From Corynespora cassiicola (taxonomy: Eukaryota; Ascomycota; Dothideomycetes; Pleosporales; Corynesporascaceae): 64,000 nt of DNA. Below are positions 8,474 through 34,085 of the stretch, piece by piece. The DNA is taken from positions 1-64,000 of the forward strand of contig JAEUWY010000007.1 of NCBI GenBank assembly GCA_022059125.1. Direction: 5' to 3'. A program made the position numbers and the translations under genes. The stretch's first letter is position 1. Each line of letters starts with the position of its first letter. The notes beneath the pieces are model-generated. The model saw only the letters and a list, made by a program, of their open reading frames with translations, made no database searches and was not told where the DNA came from.

Positions 8474-11400
8474 CTACACGACTAGTATATCAAAACTCTG
8501 TTTCACGACACAGTCGCTCTGTACTAGCCCAGCTCCGACCCTCTCATACTCTCCATCCACACTAGTGGGCTTGACAACTAGTATGTAATACTCCTGAATA
8601 TTCGAAGTGTTCCCACTTGAAGGAAACTTTCTCCCAATGACAATGCATCGTTTTCCATAAAGAGCTGCGTCATCGCGAATATCGTACTGTATCCATCCTC
8701 TTCCTTTCCCATTTGAATCCAGAACAGTATGCTGATTCCCATCTGGTTCCGTCCGACAGTCTCGGAATTTTCCTAGGCCTGCAACCAGGGCAATATCGCG
8801 TTCTTTGTCAAATCTGAGGTTACCAACCCAATCAACCTCGCCGAAAGGGACATTTATGAACTTGATACCTCCACTATTTGACATCCAGGACCATGAAGGC
8901 ACCTGCCGGTCATTATATGCGATTCGCTCAACACGTGTATCAGAAGTGTGCCAGAGAAGATTCCTATGAAGGTATTTTTCGAAAGTTCCGTATCTACTCT
9001 CGTGCCCTATTGCGTTTGAAATGCGGGCTTCTAACCCGGATATAGCAACGCACCTGTCGGTCTTCTCTGTTAGACCGCGCTTTGAATAATCTTCAAACAG
9101 GAATTGAATAAATTCTGTAGTACGCCGCGTGCCAGATTCAAGAAGCCGGGTCGGGAAGTTTGGATCAAGATTGAAGTATTTCTTGCGGTGTGAACTGGGC
9201 AGAAAGTTATCAGGCTAGTGATATGTTGGCCTGGGTACTATGGAACTCATACCTTGTCAATCTAGTCAAATTTTCGCAGTAAACTCCTTCTCCACATTCC
9301 CAGTATGTCTGATTAGCGCTAAAGTGAATAGTTCGCCGTGCCAGAACTCTCTCTTGCACCACCCACGCTCGGCTATTGAGCTGAGCCTCATCCAAGTCAT
9401 TATCGAAATCATCTATGTCGCTACTGATATAGAAACGCTTGCCTGAGGAGTCTTGAGCATGAACATATTCGTAGTTTAGGTCGCGTTTGAGGAACCCTGC
9501 GTTGGAGTCGGCAGCGGAAGTAGCGGCTAGTACGCAATAGGCCTGAGAAAAGACACTTTCCATTCGGCCAGATTCGCTCTTCCAATCTTTTCCATTGTCG
9601 CCATACTGGATGATACAAAGCGAGTCAATCCAGAGATATGGGACGCCAAATTCTCGAGTGACTCGAACAGCATCTTGGAATGTTTTTGGTAACCGAGAAA
9701 TACTGAATCCTCTGAGTCGTTCGTCGACGTTGTCCTGTGACGTACAAAATGTCTTCTTCTCTGTGGTAGATAGATTTCCCCAGCAGTGAGATAAGGCGAT
9801 ATAGTCTTTTACAGTTGTTTCTGAGGAATGAATCAGACGGATGGAATCTGGATTATAATTCGATTGTTTTGAATTACCAACGAAGAGGAATCTTCTTGGT
9901 AAGGTCATGTCAGATGTGTTTCGGCGCTTACTGCAATCGTGTGACTCATCGCACCAATGGAGCCATGCGCGAAGCAAATGGAATCGAACTGTGTTATCTG
10001 GTCCAGATCGAATCGGAAAGCCGATCGGAACACCTAGATCGTCATGGCCCGCGTATTCTGTATCACAAGCCTCAGCAAATACTGTTCCTATTCAGGGTGT
10101 TAGAAGGGTTGAGAACACCGACCTGGATCAGTACAAAACCGCAGAAGACGCTGGCCCCGCCATCCATTTCTTATATATGCACCTTGTCTCACTAGACAGA
10201 TGTTTATGTTGTCATCTTTTTCACAGTGTCTTATCGATTTGTGAAGGAGTCTGCAGACCAAGCAGCTTTTCGCGGAAGCTCTGATGTTGGAAACGCTAGT
10301 CTTTCCAATAACGGCTGTGACAAAGTCCACGATAAATATGCAGAAAGGGCAGAAGTTGACAGTATCTGCATCTTCCTTAAATGGGAGATTGACGTAGAAT
10401 TTCTGTGCAAAATTTTGGTCGAGGCCGATACCCCAATCGTTGTACTAGATCCAATGAAAGTTAGATCAAGCAACTAAATGCCCGATATAGGCTAGTTACC
10501 TTCTATAGCACCAGGTACATTAGGATTAGCAGAAGCCTCGCGTATCAAACTTCACAGCTCCACTCACCGCCTATATCACCAGTCACACCAAGTGAGCAGA
10601 ACTCTCGCGCATTGAAGCTAGTAGTTTCGCTTACATCCTACACCAGCTTCATCAGAAGTCTTGTATATTAAGGCTCGCAGTTATACTCACGTCCTAAGCC
10701 ATAGGACACACTAGGGTTAGCAAAAAGCCTCACACATCAAATTTCGCAGCTCTACCTACATCCTACACCATTAAGCACACCAAAATTAGCAGAAGCCTTG
10801 CGCATCAAAGTTTAAAGCTCTACTTACGCGCTAAATTGCCAGACATATCAGGGTTAGCAAAAGCCTTACACATTAGACTTCGTAGCTCCACTTACCCACT
10901 TCACCACCAGACATACTAAAATCAGCACACACTTTTCGCATGAAATCTTATAGCGTCACTAACCTCCTACATGACCAGAAATTTCGAGGTTAGCAGAAGC
11001 CTCATACATCAAGCTTCGTGGCTCCACTTACACGCTACACCGCCAGGCACGCCAGAGTTAGCAGAAGCCCATGCATTAAAATTTGCAGCTTTACTTACAT
11101 CCTATACCGTATGAAAAATATCAGGATCAGCAAAAGTTATGTGTATCAACACCTGCAGATCTACTTACTCGCTGCACCACCAAAACCCCAAGATTAGCAG
11201 AAATCTTACGTATCACATTTCACAGATCTACTTACCCACTATATTAACAAGCATGCCAAGTTTAGTGGAAATCTCGCGCATTATTGTTTGGGGTTCGATT
11301 TACCAACTAAATCATATTAGCGAAAGCCTTGCACATCAGAGGTAGCAACTCTGCTTACCGCCTACATCTCCCGATGCTGGGGTTAGCAACAGTCTCACTT

Positions 11401-12347
11401 ATTAAAACACCAAATCTACTTACATCCTATACCACCAGAAATACCAAGGTCAGCGAAAGCCTCATGCATCAAAAGTGGCAGCTCTACTTACACGCTTCAC
11501 CACCAAGGGCCTCAATTTTAGCAGAAGCCTTACACATTGAATTTGACAACTCTACTTACCCACTACACCACAAAACACACCATGGTTAGTAGAAACTTCG
11601 TGCATCAAAAATTGAGGCTCTACCCACCAACTAAACGGCCAGGTACCAAGATTAGCAGGAGTCTTGCACATCAGACGTCACAGCTTTACTTACTTCCTAT
11701 ACCGCCAGACACGAAATTTAGCGTAAGCCTCAAGCATCAAAGCCCACAGTTTCACTCACCCACTATAACACCAGACATACCAAAGTAAGTAAAAATATCG
11801 CGCATCAAAGCTCGCATGTCTACTTACAACCTACAACACCAGGCATGCCAAAGTTAGCAAAAATATTATGCATCAAAGCTCGGGGCTCTACTTACTGCCT
11901 ACATCATCAGACATACTAATATTAGCGTGAACCTTGTGTATCAAAGATCGAAACTCAACGCACATTCTACACGACCAGACACCAGGATTAGTAGAACTCT
12001 TGCATCAAATCTCGCAGCTCTACTCACCAACTGCACCACCAAACACACCAAGGTCAGCTGGAACTTTGTATGTCGAATTCTGTAGGCCTACACACTTCCT
12101 GCTTGTGACTTAGTTATCTAATCACAGCAAGAGTTAACAGACCACCTACTCTCTGTTCTTTCTGTCAGCCAGATTTATGGCACGGTAAGTTATCTTGGCG
12201 ACGTACCACAAAAATCCAGTCCTCTCCCATGTCTTCACTCCTAAAGTCGAGAACCGGTAGAGCTATATGAAAGATAGGGTTTATCATAGTGGCGGGACTT
12301 TTTCCGGCTGCTTTTATGAATGTGGGGTGACCGCTCCCTACATGCAT
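8474..12347 (-). CDS. HET-domain (heterokaryon incompatibility) protein with 25 single-codon microexons
   Basis: Minus-strand model: exon 1 12347-12207, 25 exons of 3 nt (12098 down to 10500), then 10444-10123, 10087-9253 and 9194-8474; about 697 aa, all phases compatible. HET hallmarks: YIALSHCWG near 9800, LPKTFQDAVRVTREFG with PYLWIDSLCIIQ, then SRAWVVQERVLARR, and the late PSWSW motif near 8900. An N-terminal part has CxxC-type pairs (CLVCRLL). HET proteins trigger cell death after fusion of unlike hyphae. The 58-nt intron 9252-9195 is well supported. Intron 10122-10088 is short (35 nt); an in-phase alternative acceptor gives 41 nt (to 10082). The exon at 10444 has no in-frame ATG, so the start must lie upstream of the microexons. 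Exon 1 ends before GTACGT at a codon boundary. A 26th microexon (GTG, 12145-12143) is possible but needs a weak GTCTGT donor. Exon 1 is the least certain part. Confidence 0.8.
10445..12098 (-). repeat. tandem array of introner-like introns separated by 3-nt exons (unit about 68 bp)
   Basis: Twenty-five three-base exons in transcription order, codon and lowest coordinate: GAA 12096, TTG 12028, AAT 11964, GCA 11896, GTT 11828, TGG 11760, GAA 11694, TTG 11628, TGG 11560, CGT 11492, GAT 11424, GCG 11359, TTG 11304, TGG 11236, CGA 11169, GAT 11099, CGT 11032, GAG 10964, TGG 10896, CGC 10828, GAT 10760, GAC 10691, GAT 10635, GCG 10568, AAG 10500. The 24 introns between them are 52-67 nt (13 are exactly 65) and a 55-nt intron follows (10499-10445). 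Every one starts GT (mostly GTAAGT/GTGAGT) and ends AG; nearly all have a GCTAAC/GCTGAC/GCTAAT-type branch point about 25 nt before the end. Similarity extends beyond splice signals (GAGCTG after the donor, then TTTGATGCGTGAGGCTT), as in fungal introner-like elements. The repeat period of 68 is not a multiple of 3, so the array is not a coding tandem repeat when unspliced. Confidence 0.8.
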
Positions 12348-13907
12348 CGGTCCTTTGATTTTTCCGGTTAAGCGATTAATACTCGAAAGAATCCCTTCGG
12401 ATAGGTTTATTTATTACAACCGCTCATGATGGCATTTTGAGTGGTTGCTATAAGCGAACGATCAACGCATCAGGTATTTCAATTGGCCATCAGAACAGGA
12501 AACTGCTGACATATCGCAGAAGGTCGTATGATATTACAAGAGCGAGTGTCACTCGCTAGAATTATCACAATTACTAAGCTTGCCGTGCGGTTCCTCTGGA
12601 TAGCCTGGCTAGAGTATCACCGAGAACAATATACCAACTTTCCACAACATGAGACCACACACCCAAGCACCTGAAAGTGCGACAGCAGGAATAATTCGAC
12701 ACACTGGAAGCCTACCAGAAAAGTTGACCTGGAACTCTTTCATCCAGCTAAAGGTGAATCATACAACGTTTTTAAGTAAACGAACATTCAACGTAGATCT
12801 TGAAAAGGGTTGTGATGTTGATGTCCAGTGCTTGACATTACTGCTAAATTTGTATTGCAAAAGGCTTTCGACACTATGTGGAAGAAAATGATCCATAGCG
12901 ATCTTCCGCAAATGTAGATGGCTAACCCAAAGAAAATAATTTCACTAGCATCAGAGAATTGGACAACTCAACCATTTCCATTCAACTTAATCGAGCATTC
13001 CCTTCATCATATTCACTTCAAGTACAATAACAATATACTGGGCCAGTCAATCATGGACACCTTGAGCGTAAATAGCTCTACAATACTGCCCACGTCTCTG
13101 ATCCCAAACCACCCCCCACTTGCTCTTGTACTGCCAATTGCCCTCCTTGCAACCAGCTAAATGAAATATCAAACCACGCTTTCCGCCAAAGATGACTAGA
13201 CCAAAGTCACTGACCGCACTGAGCGCCGCAGGATACAGAATCGTATTGCCCAGCGCGCACACCGTAAGCACACGTGAGCTTTTTTTTAGACATGCTTGCT
13301 CAACTTGCCCTAGGAAAAAGGCTCAGACAGAGACTGAAAGACATGGAGGATAGTACTGCATTGAACTATTATGTTTGGGTTGAGCCATCTTCCCTCGTAG
13401 AGTCGCATCTTCATCCCGTATCACCCTATCGAGAGTCCCTTTCGTCGAGCCCACACGTCTTTCTGCAAGACTGCGACATTACTCCTCAGCATTTATTTTT
13501 TCTGTTACCTGCTCTATCTTCGTACCTAGTGCCAGCGGTTCCAACCTCTAGACTTACAATGCTATCATGAATAACGTTGCCTAATGGGTCGGTCTATGCG
13601 TGCTTCCAGCCATCCGCATCGTCAAACTGCCTGGCCCAAACCCCTCTGGACCACCACTCCTACACCTTCGAGAGCGCCAGCCCTTTCGCGCAAGGCTATG
13701 CAGCCGTGGCCGGTAGATAGCGCAGATGGTCAGATAGTCATAGTCATTACAGTTCTCTCATCGCATAAAGCAATGCACTTGTTGCATATGTGAAGTAGCC
13801 TCTAGCGACCACCGCTCGACCCTCAGCGACCATCTGCTTTCCCTGTCACTCTCTCGTTGGAACAACGCGGGTAGACGGCATGTACTGGAGATGAGCCTCA
13901 CGCATAG
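12348..13907. other. intergenic region, upstream of the HET gene
   Basis: About 1.56 kb. It should contain the HET promoter next to 12347. A minus-strand frame at 13047-13271 (74 codons; contains VSDFGLVIFGGKRGLIFHLAGC) looks somewhat protein-like but I cannot assign it and it lacks a clear ATG context. Short plus-strand frames at 12649, 12918 and 13274 have no recognisable motif. Confidence 0.4.
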
Positions 13908-26831: not shown

Positions 26832-27436
26832 GTTGGATTGTTGTATAGTCCCCAAATCAGTGCAAGTAAGGTAAAAAGATTGCCTTTTGCCCAAATAATG
26901 GAAGCTGTTTGACTACTTGTAGGAGAAGCTGAATGAGTTTTTTGCCAATCCCATTTCCCCTTTGAATGCATGATGGGCGAAAATAGAGCTTCTCTTCGTC
27001 CAAAGAACAGCCCAGACCGGATTTTCCTAGATGATGCCTGTACAGTTTAATTGACCGGTGGAGCCGTTCCAGGCTAACGAGCAAGATTCGGAACACGAGG
27101 AACAAATGGCGCCACAAAGCTGCATACTAGAATAGCGCACTCGGAACACAGTATTCCACTAATTTATTTGAAGTTAACTTAATACCTGTCGCGCTTGAAG
27201 ATAATACCGCTGTATTTAAGATAGTTTTTCTATTTATTAGAGATAAAATTTATATAAAAAAGTGAAAATCTAGTAGAATAGAAGGGTTTAGAATAAATAT
27301 AAATTACTTTATTAGCTAAAAGGCTCTTATTTATTTTAAACTTATTAATCTTTAATAAATACACAGTATTAGTAATATATTTTTATTACTTTTAGATTGA
27401 CTAACAGAAATAGTTTAGAAAAAGCTAATTATAATA
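26832..27436. other. promoter side of the S15 gene and boundary to the AT-rich block
   Basis: Sequence is of ordinary composition up to about 27150 and then turns abruptly to very high AT. An 86-codon minus-strand frame (26857-27117) has no recognised motif and is probably leader. From 27200 to 27436 only TA-rich DNA. Confidence 0.5.
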
Positions 27437-28846
27437 CAGAGAGGTGATATAAAAAAAGTATAATAAAAAAATTACACTTTTTAAACTTATATAACGTTGT
27501 AACTAAACTAGTTATTTAAAAAAAAATTAGTTTTAAAAGTATTTATTAGTACTATACTAAAATTAAAAAAAGTTATTTATATAATTTTTTTAGCGTTTAA
27601 AAAGAGTTTAAAATTATAATAAAAAAAAGTATAAATTTTAATATATTATACTTTTGTATTTAAAATTTTTTTTACTTTTTTATTTTACGTTAACTAAATT
27701 TAATTTAGTATATATTACGTAAGTAAAAAACTAGAGCGAAAAAAATAATTAAATATTATTAAAACACAATTTAAAAAAATAAAATCTTAATAATATAAGT
27801 AATTATTATATAATAATAAACTAGTTAAATTAGTATATAAATAAAGATTTTAAAAATATAAATCTAAATCTCTATTTTTTTAAATAAAAATAAGATAGAA
27901 TTTTAATTTTAAGATAATAAGAAAAAGGTAATTTTTATTAAAAGCTAATACATCTGTTATAACTTTTTCTAATATATTAAATAAAAATAAAATAAGTGTT
28001 AAAAATACTATATAAAGAATAGATAAATAAATTTTTTTTAATAGCTTAAAAAGATATAGAAATTAGAATAAATTAAGCTATTTAAAAAAAAAATTATTAA
28101 TAGAGATTTAATTAAAAGCTCTAAAAAAATAGATAAAAAAATATTATAAAAAACGTTTATAGAAATATTAAAAAAAAAATTAATACAAATATTAGTACTA
28201 AAAATCTTTATTTAAATAAAAAAAGATAAAATAAAATTAGAATATATAAAAATATAAATTAAAAAATATAAAAAATGTAAATTTAAATAAAATTATATCT
28301 TTAAATAAGATAGTAATAGAAAAAGCTGTAAGTTTTAAGCAGAAATATATAAAAAAAAAATTAAAACAATAAAAGCTAAATTAGTTTTTATAAATTAAAA
28401 TTATAAGTAAAAAAAAGAATTTAAAAAAATTAAAGTTGATTAAAAATTAGTTAAACTTTTTAATTTTAATTACCTTTTTAAAATAACAAATACTAATTAA
28501 ATTATAGCTTAAGAAATTATTATATTAGTATAAAAAGTTATTTAAATAAAAAGAAATTTAAAATTAGTTTTTGTTAGAACACTTAATTCTAAATATAACT
28601 TTAATAAAATAAATTATGTATAAAAAATATTAAAATTTATTATTAAAAAAAAAACCTTCTGGGAATTTTATATACTATTTTTTATTTTTTAAATTATAAG
28701 ATTAATATAAATACTAATTAGTTTATAAACTAAAAATTTTAATAAAATAATTTAAAAACTAATACAGCTAAACTAGTTTTAAACTAGTTTCGAAAAAAAA
28801 AATTAAATAATTTAGATATCTAGTTTATAGTCTAGATCTAGTACTT
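27437..28846 (+). mobile_element. RIP-degraded Tc1/mariner copy, 3' truncated
   Basis: Starts with a decayed form of the mariner terminus (CAGAGAGGTGATATAAAA; compare CAGAGGGGTGACATTAAA at 53239) and follows the intact element of 53239-55357 segment by segment, including the two AT-rich introns. Almost every C or G in the intact copy reads T or A here, so the frame is full of stops. It stops at 28846, in the region equivalent to PYSPDLAP near the third catalytic residue, where the LTR of Gypsy copy A begins; the missing end was not found. Confidence 0.7.
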
Positions 28847-30356
28847 TGTTATAATACAGTTTTAAAAAGACTTGAGCAGGCAACACTAAAAGCGCAGCTC
28901 TAATTATATATATAATTACGCGCCTAAGAAAGAACTGCTGTACTATATTATATAACTAAAAAATATATATATAATTTAGAGCTTACGCTTTAGTAAAGTA
29001 AGCGCTTATAAGTACTAATAATAAATATTTATAAAAGATACAGATAAGTATAGTTACTACATAAGTATATAGTTTATATAATTATATTTTATAATTATAT
29101 TTACTTTATTAGCAAATCTATTATTTAGAATTAACTATTAACTTATTATACTCTATTACTAATACGGAGATCTGTACAGTATATCGCATATTATTTTACT
29201 TACGTAACTTTACTAGTATTTATTTCTAAAAATTAACTTAAGCAGCTACTTATTTTTTAGCCTCGCTTATAGTCTGTAGTATAGCTTTAATATTATAAAT
29301 ACTTTTTAAAATAAATACTATTTTAAAATTACGTGTATTTTTAACTTTAACTAGTAGCACTATTAGTACTAAAAATATTACTAGTATAATTATATAACCT
29401 AACACAGCAGATAATAATTCTATTAAAGTAGTAATATCTAACTTTTATTATAAAAAATAAAATAAGTTTAAAAACTGGCTCTTACAGCTCAACTTATTTT
29501 TTAACTTTTAAAATAAAAATATTAAAAAAAAAAAACGCGTTATATTCGCAGCTACGTATATAAAAAACAAAATACTTTAATAGATTAAACTAGCTTTTAT
29601 TAAATATAAAAACAGCGAAGCTAACAACGACGTTAATAAATAAATAGAAAATTTTAATAAATTTAAAAAAAAGATTAAATAAGTTTTTAGAGTTTCTAAT
29701 AAGAATATAATTACTAAATAAACTATTTAATATTTTAAATAACAGACTTCAGCTGCTGACTATGCTAATAAATTTTAGTAACTATTAATTTTTACTAAAT
29801 AAAATAATAAAGTACTTATAACAATATACTGTTAAAAATTTAAATTTAATATTAAAAAAAAATTTATACGTTCTGGAGCTCAGCTTAACACGCTTAAATA
29901 ACTTATAAATAAATTTATTAAGATTAATTAGAAACTGTATAAATTATAAATAGAATTACACTAAAACAGAAATCTAAGATATAAATAACGTACTAAACTA
30001 AGCTATAGTAAAAAGTACTATAATACTAATACTGGTAAACGAGTCGAACGTAAAATAACGTATTTTACTTATAATATCTATAGTAATAAACTAATAGTTT
30101 TTAGTAATATCTAAAAATCAGAATAAAAAAGTAATAAAAAAAATAATAAGCTTAAAAGTAAAACTATAACTTATTATATATGTAGAAAAGCAGACTATAT
30201 TATAAAAAACTGTTAATTAAAAAATAAAATTATTTAACAGCTAAATATATTACAGACTACTTTAAATAATAAAACTAATGTAAATAATAAATAAAAAGTT
30301 GTTATAAATAGATTTTATAAAACAGAAAAATAGAAAATTTTTTTAATTATATTTAG
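28847..30356 (+). mobile_element. RIPed Ty3/Gypsy copy A: LTR and part of gag
   Basis: LTR 28847-29292 (446 bp, TGTTAT...TAATA, formerly TAACA), followed by gag that aligns with the intact gag at 40138. The CCHC knuckle region is at about 30170-30215. Stops are everywhere. The copy breaks off inside gag at 30356, where a GC-richer 358-bp block begins. It was inserted into the mariner copy to its left. Confidence 0.75.
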
Positions 30357-30714
30357 TGTAAGGACACAGGGCGACTTGTCTCCGATACGGCTCAGGTACC
30401 ACTTAGAATAAGGGTTCACAGAACTAGGGAACAATTACAAGTCGGAACCTATAGGTCTTGTACGAAAGGACATTTCTAGACTACAGAACTATCTAGAAAT
30501 GTTACGTTCTTTTATATTCTTTTCTGAAACCTTCTATCCCTGGTTCAACCTAGTGCCGACTTAGTTATAATGAATAAGAAACTTAGATAGCTGGATGTTC
30601 AGACTTGAGTCGGAGTTAGGTCGGAAGTTAAAGTTAGAGTCTGGTTGGAAGTCAAGATCACGTGCGCAATACTAGAAAGTGAAATCAGACTTTGTGCGGA
30701 CGAGGTTCGTCACA
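30357..30714. mobile_element. un-RIPed GC-richer island, candidate solo LTR
   Basis: A 358-bp block of normal base composition inside DNA that is almost all A+T. It begins TGTAAGGACAC and ends GTTCGTCACA, so it has the TG...CA ends of an LTR. It contains an inverted pair CATTTCTAGA/TCTAGAAATG around 30470-30505. I find no coding frame. No target duplication is visible: the left flank (TTTAG) and right flank (TAAGT) differ, and the two flanks are gag fragments in opposite orientation. It is unrelated to the 370- and 445-bp LTRs of the window. Confidence 0.45.
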
Positions 30715-31995
30715 TAAGTATTGCGAGTAAAATACGTTACTTTATATTTAATTTATTTACTAGTATTAGCGTTATAGTACTTTCTGCTATAGCTTAGTTT
30801 AGTACGCTATTAGTATTATAAGTTTTAATTTTAGCGTAATTCTATACGTAATTCGTATAGTTTTTAATTAATATTAATAAACTTATTAATAAGTTATTTA
30901 AGTATTTTAAGTTAAGCTCTAGAACGTATAAATTTTTTTTTTAATATTAGATTTAAGTCTCTAACAGTACATTGTTATAAGTGTTTTATTATTTTATTCT
31001 GTAAGAATTAACAGTTACTAAAATTTATTAGCATAGTTAATAGCTAAAACTTATTATTTAAAATATTAGATATTTTATTTAGTAATTGTATTTTTATTAG
31101 CGATTCTGAAAACTTATTTAATTTTTTTTTAAAATTTATTAAAATTTTTTATTTATTTATTAACGTTGTCGTTAGTTTTACTATTTTTATACTTAATAAA
31201 AACTAGTTTAATTTATTAAAGTATTTTGCTTTTTATGTACGTAGCTGCAAATATAACGCGTTTTTTTTTTAATATTTTTATTTTAGAAGTTAAAAAATAA
31301 GTTAAGCTGTAAGAGCCAGTTTTTAAACTTATTTTATTCTTTATAGTAAAAGTTAAATATTACTACTTTAATAGAATTATTATCTGCTGTGTTAGGTTAT
31401 ATAATTATACTAGTAATAGTTTTAGTACTAATAGTGCTACTAGTTAAAGTTAAAAATACACGTAATTTTAAAATAGTATTTATTTTAAAAAGTATTTATA
31501 ATATTAAAGCTGTACTACAGATTATAAGTAAAGCTAAAAAATAAGTAGCTGCTTGTTAAGGCTGTACTACAGACTATAAGCGAGGCTAAAAAACAAGTAG
31601 CTGCTTAGATTAATTCTCGGGGATAAATACTAGTAGAGTTACGTAAGTAAAACGATGTGCGATATACTGTATAGATTTTCGTATTAGCAATAGAGCATAA
31701 TAAGTTAATAGTTAATTCTAAATAATAGATTTGCTAACAAAGTAAATATAATTATAAAGTATAATTATATAGACTATATACATGTGCGGTAATTGCGCTC
31801 ACCCGCACTTATTATAAATACTTACTATTAGTACTTATAAACGCTTACGCTAAAAAGCTGTAAGCGCTTACTTTACTAAAACGTAAGCTTTAAATTATAT
31901 AGTTTTTCTAATTACGTAATGCGGTACAGCAGTCCCCTCTTAAACGCGTATTTATATATATAATTAGAGCCGCGTTTACGGTGTTGCCTGCCTGG
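30715..31995 (-). mobile_element. RIPed Ty3/Gypsy copy B (inverted): gag fragment and LTR
   Basis: Reverse complement of the same gag region as copy A, reading from about 31525 down to 30715, and an LTR at about 31554-31995 in inverted orientation. The inner LTR end is partly duplicated (about 50 bp at 31501-31553 repeated at 31554-31606). Copies A and B therefore form an inverted repeat around the island 30357-30714. At the outer end, the LTR meets the 5' LTR of copy C head to head at the palindrome GTATTATAATAC (31995-32006). Confidence 0.65.
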
Positions 31996-33715
31996 TATTA
32001 TAATACGGTTTTAGAAGAACTCGGGCAGGCAACACTAAAGGCGCGGCTTTAATTATATATGTAATTACGCGCCCGAGAAGGAACTGCTGTGCTATATTAC
32101 GTAACTAAAAAAAATATGTAATTTAGAGCTTACGCTTTAGCAAAGTAAGCGCTTATAAGCACTAATAATAAGTATTTATAAAAAGTACGAGTAAGCGCAG
32201 TTACTATTAAGTATATAGTTTATATAATTATACTTTATAATTATATTTACCTTGTTAGTAAATCTATCGTTTAGAATTAACTATTAATTTATTGTGCTCT
32301 ATCGCTAATACAGAGACCCGTACAGTATATCGCACATTATTTCTTTTACGTAACTTCTACACGTACTTATCTCTAAAAATCAACTTTAAGCAGCTACTTG
32401 CTTTCTAGCCTCGCTTATAGCTTATAGCACAGCCTTAATATTATAAACATTTTTTAAAATAAGTACTACTTCAGGATCACGCGTACTTTTAACTCTGACT
32501 AGTAGTACTATTAGTGCTAAAACTACTACTAGTGTAATTGTACAACCTAACTCGGCAGACAATAATTCTATTAAAGTAGCTATATCTAACTTCTACTATA
32601 GAGAATAAAGTAAGCTCGAAGACTGGCTCTTACAGCTTAACTTATTCTTTAACTTCTAAAATAGAAACGTTAAAAAAAAAAAACGCGTTATATTTGCAGC
32701 CACATATATAAGAGACAAAGTACTTTAATAGATTAAGCTAGCTTTTATTAAGTATAAGAACGGCGAAGCCAACGACGACGTTAATAAATAGATAGAAGAT
32801 TTTAACAAATTTAAGGAAAAAATTAAACAGGTTTTTAGAGTCTCTAACAAAAATATAATTACCGGACAAGTTATTTAATATTTTAAATAACAGGCTTTAG
32901 CTGCTAACTACGCTAATAAATTTTAGTAACTATTAATTCTTACTAAATAAAATAACAAAGTACTTATAATAATGTACTGTTAAGGACTTAAACCTAATGT
33001 TAAAGAGAAACTTATGTGTTCTGGAGCTTAGCTCGACACGCTTAAACAACTTATAAATAAGTTTATTAATATTAATTAGAAACTGTACGAACTGCGTATA
33101 GAATTACGCTAGAACCGGAATCTACGATATAAATAACGTGCTAAACTAAACTACGGTAAAAGGTATTACAACGCTAATACTAGTAAACAAGTTAAATGTA
33201 AGGTAACGTATTTTACTCGCAACACCTACAGTAATAAATCTATAGTTTTTAGTAATATTTAGAAATCGGGACGAGAAGGTAATAAAAAGAGAAATAATAA
33301 ACTTAAGAGTAAGAGTATAACTTACTACGTGTGTGGAAAGACAGGCTATATCGCAAAAGACTGTTAATTAAAAAATAAAGTTGTTTAACAGCTTAATGTA
33401 TTATAAACTACTTTATATAATAAATCCGACGTAGATAACGAATAGAAAGTCGTTACGGAAAAATTCTAAGAATTAGAATTAGTCTACGATAGTAAACTAC
33501 TGCGACGTAGAGAAACAGAGAGATTTTTTAACTGCGTTTAATATTAAAACAAAGATATTTAGATAGAGTCTAGAAGTATTTTTAAAGAAGTTAAGTTTAA
33601 AGAACTTAGCTTTAAGAAAGAGAAAGCCTTTCGCGACGTACACGATTATAAAAACTATCTAAGTAACGCTAGTTATAAGTTTAAAAAAAATAGTAACGGT
33701 AGCACGCCACCTAAA

Positions 33716-34085
33716 TGTTAAGGCTGTGCTACAGGCTATGAGCGAGGCTAGGGAGCAAGTAGCTGCTTGGGTTGATTCTCGGGGATAAGTACTGGTAGGG
33801 TCACGTGAGTGAAACGATGTGCGATATGCTGTACGGGTCTCCGTGTTGGCAGATAGAGCACGATAGGTTGATAGTCAATTCCAAACGATAGATTTGCTAA
33901 CAAGGTGAACACAATTGTAGAGTACAATTGTGTGGACTATATACATGTGCCTGAGGCTTCTGCTCAGTACTGCTCAGTTGCTCAGTACTGCTGAGCGGAC
34001 TGATCAACTGAGCACGTCACGTGACCAGCCATGGCGGTGCGACCCTGTCGGCCCCGTCATTGGCCCACGTTTGTGGCTCATAACA
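33716..34085 (-). repeat. 3' LTR of the intact chromovirus
   Basis: 370 bp; identical by eye to 40157-40526. On the minus strand it starts TGTTATGAGCC and ends GCCTTAACA. U3 contains a cluster of short TGAGCA/TACTGAGC repeats (33961-34012). Confidence 0.95.

Follow-up and report, generated by a model that had tools for sequence, protein, structure and literature searches.

Introduction

Exons the size of a single codon are known from the truffle Tuber melanosporum, where NACHT-ankyrin (NLR) genes contain tens of codon-sized (3-bp), alternatively spliced microexons, according to three papers (PMC4986451, PMC3689799, PMC10197012, citing Iotti et al. 2012). In the micro-exon genes (MEGs) of schistosomes, many small symmetrical exons permit in-frame skipping and small protein differences; these exons account for most of the coding region (PMC4350168). 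Exons of 1–3 nt have also been reported in plants (a 1-nt exon in Arabidopsis APC11, PMC4674806), man (a 3-bp exon in RPS24, PMC11162997) and a fungus (two 3-nt exons in Dactylellina lipS, PMC5639578), but these are one or two exons, and not 26 consecutive ones. Families of alike introns (introner-like elements) are known in Dothideomycetes (PMC4457414), and fungal stwintrons are removed by consecutive splicing reactions (PMC9024468); such introns lie in unrelated genes or are nested, whereas the locus described below is one tandem series, at one locus, with a codon between its members.

The stretch of DNA analysed here (the window) covers the initial 64 kb of contig C7 (290,767 bases) of Corynespora cassiicola; the genome comprises 44.35 Mb in 23 contigs. 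The window contains an array of putative one-codon exons in a HET-domain gene. This kind of array is already known from Tuber, and the present one is a variant of it in another gene family; the statement in the first-pass annotation that no gene split codon by codon was known is contradicted by the reviews on T. melanosporum NACHT-ankyrin microexons. Common to both are a filamentous ascomycete host, a gene type tied to non-self recognition and tens of 3-bp exons in one gene (26 triplets and 27 introns as read from the sequence here). The truffle genes are of the NACHT-ankyrin type, while here a HET-domain gene is involved, which showed neither NACHT nor ankyrin; furthermore, the exons lie near the N-terminus, the host belongs to the Pleosporales, and alternative splicing is so far a prediction. 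Since the gene class differs, the array is treated here as a putative functional parallel to the Tuber arrays and is not counted among them. It is also distinct from the MEGs, since the one-codon exons would form a short N-terminal stretch, i.e., 26 of the 659 residues of the model. In the print literature searched, no codon-exon array with a HET gene, N-terminal site, Pleosporales host or apparent conservation was found.

Layout of the Array

A mechanical scan resolved the minus strand from 12206 to 10445 into introns and three-nt gaps, all in phase 0 (Table 1). The first-pass annotation had placed the array correctly and had counted 24 introns and 25 triplets, instead of 27 and 26; its lower limit for intron size, 52 nt, becomes 51 nt.

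Table 1. Features of the array and of its host gene (positions in the window).
Feature	Position	Strand	Remarks
Proposed first coding exon, MGEDWIFV	12207..12230	-	ends at codon boundary before GTACGT; read directly
Intron array	10445..12206	-	27 introns of 51–67 nt alternating with 26 three-nt exons, phase 0
Introns 1–3, upstream edge	12031..12206	-	1 and 2 missed by the intron family model; 3 weak (27.5 bits, from model position 5)
Core introns 4–26	10503..12027	-	single sequence family; mean pairwise identity 0.67; GT, AG, branch-point T and A invariant
Intron 27	10445..10499	-	GT..CTAAC..TAG; missed by the intron family model
26 triplet exons, introns interspersed	10500..12152	-	together spell RELNAVWELWRDALWRDREWRDDDAK
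Exon opening YNDWGIGLDQNFA	10123..10444	-	Cys-rich N-terminal part of HET protein; no in-frame Met; no Pfam match
Main HET exon	9253..10087	-	PF06985, E 2.3e-30; boundaries by eye against relatives
Last HET exon, to stop	8474..9194	-	intron 9252-9195 upstream; C-terminus like that of relatives by eye

Chains of introns were searched for with a GT-type donor, a length of 45–80 nt, a branch-like motif, a [CTA]AG acceptor and a fixed gap k. With k = 3 exactly 27 members were obtained, from 12206 to 10445. All other values of k from 0 to 15 gave chains of at most 3 on either strand of the window, and after masking of the array the window still held k = 3 chains of 3 members at most. Simulated sequence yielded chains of no more than 2 (20 simulations of 27 kb) or 3 (200 simulations, array composition). 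When strict signals were applied (GTRNGY, CTRAY, YAG), 12 of the 26 array gaps passed; thus, the signals of about half of the array introns are somewhat relaxed. The units follow one another with 3 nt from each AG to the next GT, and no internal intron interrupts the splice signal of an external one, as it would in a stwintron. A zero-nt recursive-splicing ratchet does not describe the arrangement either, the gap being 3 and gap-0 chains not exceeding 3 members. A structured RNA array was rejected: there were no consensus pairs in 23 introns, and window 10000-12700 matched no Rfam family at a cut-off of E 1.

The constant gap of 3 nt alone is weak evidence, since a 68-nt tandem repeat yields constant spacing automatically. 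A rival reading is a non-coding minisatellite, i.e., an intron-derived repeat of about 68 nt which expanded inside one 1.76-kb intron and is removed whole, the triplets being meaningless. In accordance with this, TRF calls part of the array (11763-11916) a plain tandem repeat. An intron of 1.76 kb would be very long for such fungi, which argues against the minisatellite.

Conservation of Splice Signals

In the alignment of the core introns, 8 of 65 columns are invariant, namely GT, AG, the branch T and A, and an AT pair; in the 53 columns outside the splice signals (invariant AT included) 28% of the cells differ from the consensus of the 23 introns. The hypergeometric probability that all 6 signal columns are among the 8 invariant ones of 65 is 3.4e-7. 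The branch T/A pair alone, with GT/AG set aside, gives P 0.003 and is the fairer test, because GT and AG had a part in delimiting the units. Since these positions are fixed while the other columns vary, each array intron looks to be under selection for splicing, as judged from the alignment. This counts against a dead repeat or one long intron, as neither has reason to keep every branch A, whereas 23 of 23 core copies retain GT, AG and the branch T/A despite decay elsewhere. The clear branch-point motifs described earlier were found again in the core introns as far as the T and A are concerned; in intron 24 the motif is weak by eye. The invariant AT, within TTTGAT (alignment columns 23-24; 23 of 23 core introns, window 10503-12027), has no obvious splicing role.

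Host Gene

The HET domain scored 106.3 bits and is of full length (profile 1-146 of 146); PF06985 was the sole Pfam family in the three ORFs scanned. HET-domain relatives amounted to 4020 proteins at E up to 0.001, with many Pleosporales names among the 120 matches listed, three of the taxa having been checked. The predicted HET gene downstream of the array is intact. Reading of the exon beginning at 10444 confirmed the earlier remark that it is without an in-frame ATG; an in-frame TAG, with which the last intron ends, directly precedes it, so that this exon is reachable only via splicing. It carries a W....DN.FA-like motif, a pattern present in 25 of 120 relatives among the matches listed.

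MGEDWIFV was the sole candidate first exon examined, and the codon boundary at its end, noted in the first pass, was found again by direct reading. Relatives start in a similar manner, although the similarity is weak and was judged by eye: MENKWSF in protein P0003, MDQETWKDSLF in P0009 and MGAEKWKDSSF in P0006. For the first 120 residues, none of 12 candidates proved to be a homologue, even with E values up to 10 allowed. With all triplets skipped, exon 1 still runs in frame to YNDW, and in Lepidopterella (P0006) the sequence reads MGAEKWKDSSF-QYDGW, with nothing between; both observations would be in line with a minisatellite removed as a whole.

The Predicted Peptide

None of the 26 triplets is a stop codon, as had been stated for the array before; this is insignificant alone (P 0.06, 0.19 and 0.18 with three shuffles). 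Read as codons, the triplets give RELNAVWELWRDALWRDREWRDDDAK, with 0 G/P/S/T (shuffle mean 6) and 14 charged residues (mean 7). Among 20,000 shuffles within codon positions, 0.02% reached such a low number of G/P/S/T and 0.03% such a high number of charged residues, and the helix propensity was not equalled in any of them; for triplets drawn from intron interiors the respective values were 0.4%, 0 and 1%, and all these composition measures, like the WRD motif discussed below, were chosen post hoc, after the peptide had been inspected. An argument from an amphipathic helix was dropped, since the amphipathicity of the peptide was insignificant (P 0.17).

Pairwise identity was 0.29 between the 24 core triplets versus 0.67 between the 23 core introns, and the correlation of intron similarity with triplet similarity was -0.11 (231 pairs). 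Thus, the triplets did not merely follow the drift of the repeat. Their columns rank with the most variable positions, one intron column being equally low. WRD occurs at codons 10, 15 and 20, with the arginine codons CGT, CGA and CGC. Block duplication of W-R-D units was rejected as its source, because the introns at corresponding places do not resemble each other more closely than other core pairs do (identity 0.664 versus 0.669; inner ones 0.686).

In 19 relatives, the segments upstream of the W motif had 0.30 charged residues, compared with 0.27 in the remainder of those proteins. This is only slightly more, and the HET family therefore appears to be without a clearly shared charged segment. 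Among 20,000 pieces from the remainder of the same 19 proteins, none matched the array peptide in charge and G/P/S/T poverty.

The restricted, charged set of residues does not fit meaningless triplets, and together with the retained splice signals it makes the minisatellite, in our view, unlikely. Alternatively, the array could act as a splicing ratchet, in which splicing takes out the introns one after another or in blocks of varying extent, the codons are mere passengers, and removal of the long insert is selected, not the peptide. Conserved splice signals would be compatible with this, and so would the variability of the triplet columns, which is expected without constraint. A residue composition far from that of shuffled triplets, and the recurrence of WRD with synonymous changes, are difficult to reconcile with passenger codons; we regard such a ratchet as quite improbable.

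Relatives with the Same Intron Repeat

All relatives compared were gene models (predicted proteins), not DNA. In Phaeosphaeriaceae sp. PMI808 two HET gene models, P0003 and P0009, contain N-terminal repeats such as EAAANAGVLGGV, which look like read-through translations of this type of intron. A profile of the window introns matched them with E 3.4e-4 and 5.4e-4, the best of 600 shuffled proteins reaching 0.2. By tblastn, six N-termini gave 69 pieces on the array, the best with 32.3 bits; 99 dinucleotide shuffles gave 5.9 pieces on average and 13 at the most (up to 23.5 bits). The fairer control, since it retains the repetition, used 100 arrays in which the same permutation of intron columns was applied to every unit; here the mean was 10.4 and the maximum 19 pieces (up to 26.6 bits).

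The piece VLGGIGGKLTCEYWDARLLLIL of P0003 aligned to VSGGIGSK*SCDV*CARLLLIL of the window, passing from an acceptor over the triplet into the following donor with no shift. Since this alignment crosses the three elements in register, the 3-base gap is probably common to both fungi, at least at that piece. A motif written after P0003 had been seen occurred 9 times in P0003, 4 times in P0009, once in P0024 (Macroventuria) and 0 times in the others among the 120 listed; 2,400 shuffled proteins contained 1 occurrence. P0051, P0035 and P0068 were suggestive by eye only. The repeat region of P0003, used as query, matched only itself among 7,999 candidates scored. No DNA of close relatives was found in the viral and prokaryotic collections, and in three distant HET loci with bacterial titles the chain scan gave nothing above 2.

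Search of the Remaining Genome

In 10 other HET loci the intron model found 0 matches, and no chain was longer than 2. One paralogue, L020 on contig C5, has a protein kinase domain in front (Pkinase, E 4.3e-19); read by eye, the kinase and HET parts form one gene. At about 4519-4446 of this locus, on the minus strand, two putative exons, AAT (3 nt) and another of 15 nt, stand directly before the motif KWEYAAD at the start of the HET part, the junction that the array occupies in the window gene; both are in phase 0 between canonical introns. These exons were the sole strict pairs for gaps of 3, 6, 9, 12 and 15 in 10 HET loci (125,382 bases, both strands counted); their introns are outside the array intron family. 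In locus L023 two introns formed a k = 3 chain; it was set aside, as it lies, by eye, upstream of the apparent start codon.

A DNA search and a 28-base pattern (up to 3 mismatches) found no copies of the array introns in 44.35 Mb beyond the locus and an identical duplicate; both searches are blunt, the pattern recovering just 3 of 27 introns per array copy. Within this limited sensitivity, the many alike copies in unrelated genes which characterize introner-like elements were not found. Invasion by a mobile intron family inserted many times, for which the alike-intron families of Dothideomycetes offer a precedent (PMC4457414), is very improbable, since no such copy was detected and independent insertions are not expected to give strict 3-nt spacing 26 times.

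The duplicate is located on contig C6: window 1-27565 corresponds to C6:260000-287564 reversed, with 99.993% identity and an identical array, and it may extend past the compared stretch of C6. C6:217000-226999 did not match the window, and in C6:286500-296499 the match was limited to the first 1,065 bases. Either a recent segmental duplication or an assembly overlap would explain this. A lone intron-like match was seen at G000:C1:4080477-4080545, followed by GAT and GTAAGT, possibly an isolated 3-nt exon; chance matches are about as frequent. In window 27001-34000 and 41001-64000 the G+C content falls to 14-35%; in this they resemble the mutated repeat islands of some Dothideomycetes.

Proposed Splicing of the Array

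Conserved splice signals, a non-random peptide, an intact HET gene and relatives with the same repeat support, without proving, the gene model of the first-pass annotation, in which phase-0 codon exons join exon 1 to the HET exon. Probably, then, this HET-domain gene carries a codon-exon array whose 27 introns would be spliced stepwise, so that the mRNA would encode up to 26 extra residues. The ordinary spliceosome could remove each of the 27 short introns singly by intron definition. Stepwise intron definition from the 5' end appears most likely; in this simplest order, 5' to 3', each step would lengthen the upstream exon by one codon and leave a normal donor for the next. The mature mRNA would then read MGEDWIFV, followed by up to 26 residues (charged, helix-favouring) and YNDW... 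of the HET protein. We infer transcription, splicing order, codon inclusion or alternative use, and a role in recognition.

Since every exon is one codon in phase 0, any subset could be skipped in frame; therefore the gene could yield proteins whose N-termini differ by single residues, as has been reported for the truffle NACHT-ankyrin genes. As to the origin, the strict 3-nt gaps favour a tandem duplication of an intron + codon unit, which may have been followed by codon change under selection.

Conclusions

If the model is true, codon-sized exon arrays extend from truffle NLR-like genes to HET-domain genes in another fungal group, and conservation of the array between species is suggested by the Phaeosphaeriaceae gene models. 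Gene finders may turn such arrays into spurious protein repeats, apparently so in P0003 and P0009, and because of this, further arrays may be hidden in annotations. The locus would be a natural test bed of 27 introns for the handling of 3-nt exons by the spliceosome, i.e., removal order, skipping and recursive steps. A more tentative idea, which could perhaps hold although we would not count on it, is that fungal immune genes have repeatedly used codon-exon arrays as a means of diversification: the Pleosporales HET array would be kept between species and spliced combinatorially, with codons changing faster than introns, and splicing together with in-frame, intron-mediated recombination would tune the N-terminus residue by residue, in parallel to the truffle NACHT-ankyrin receptors. 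The array is thus a candidate route by which fungi may diversify a recognition protein in steps of single residues.
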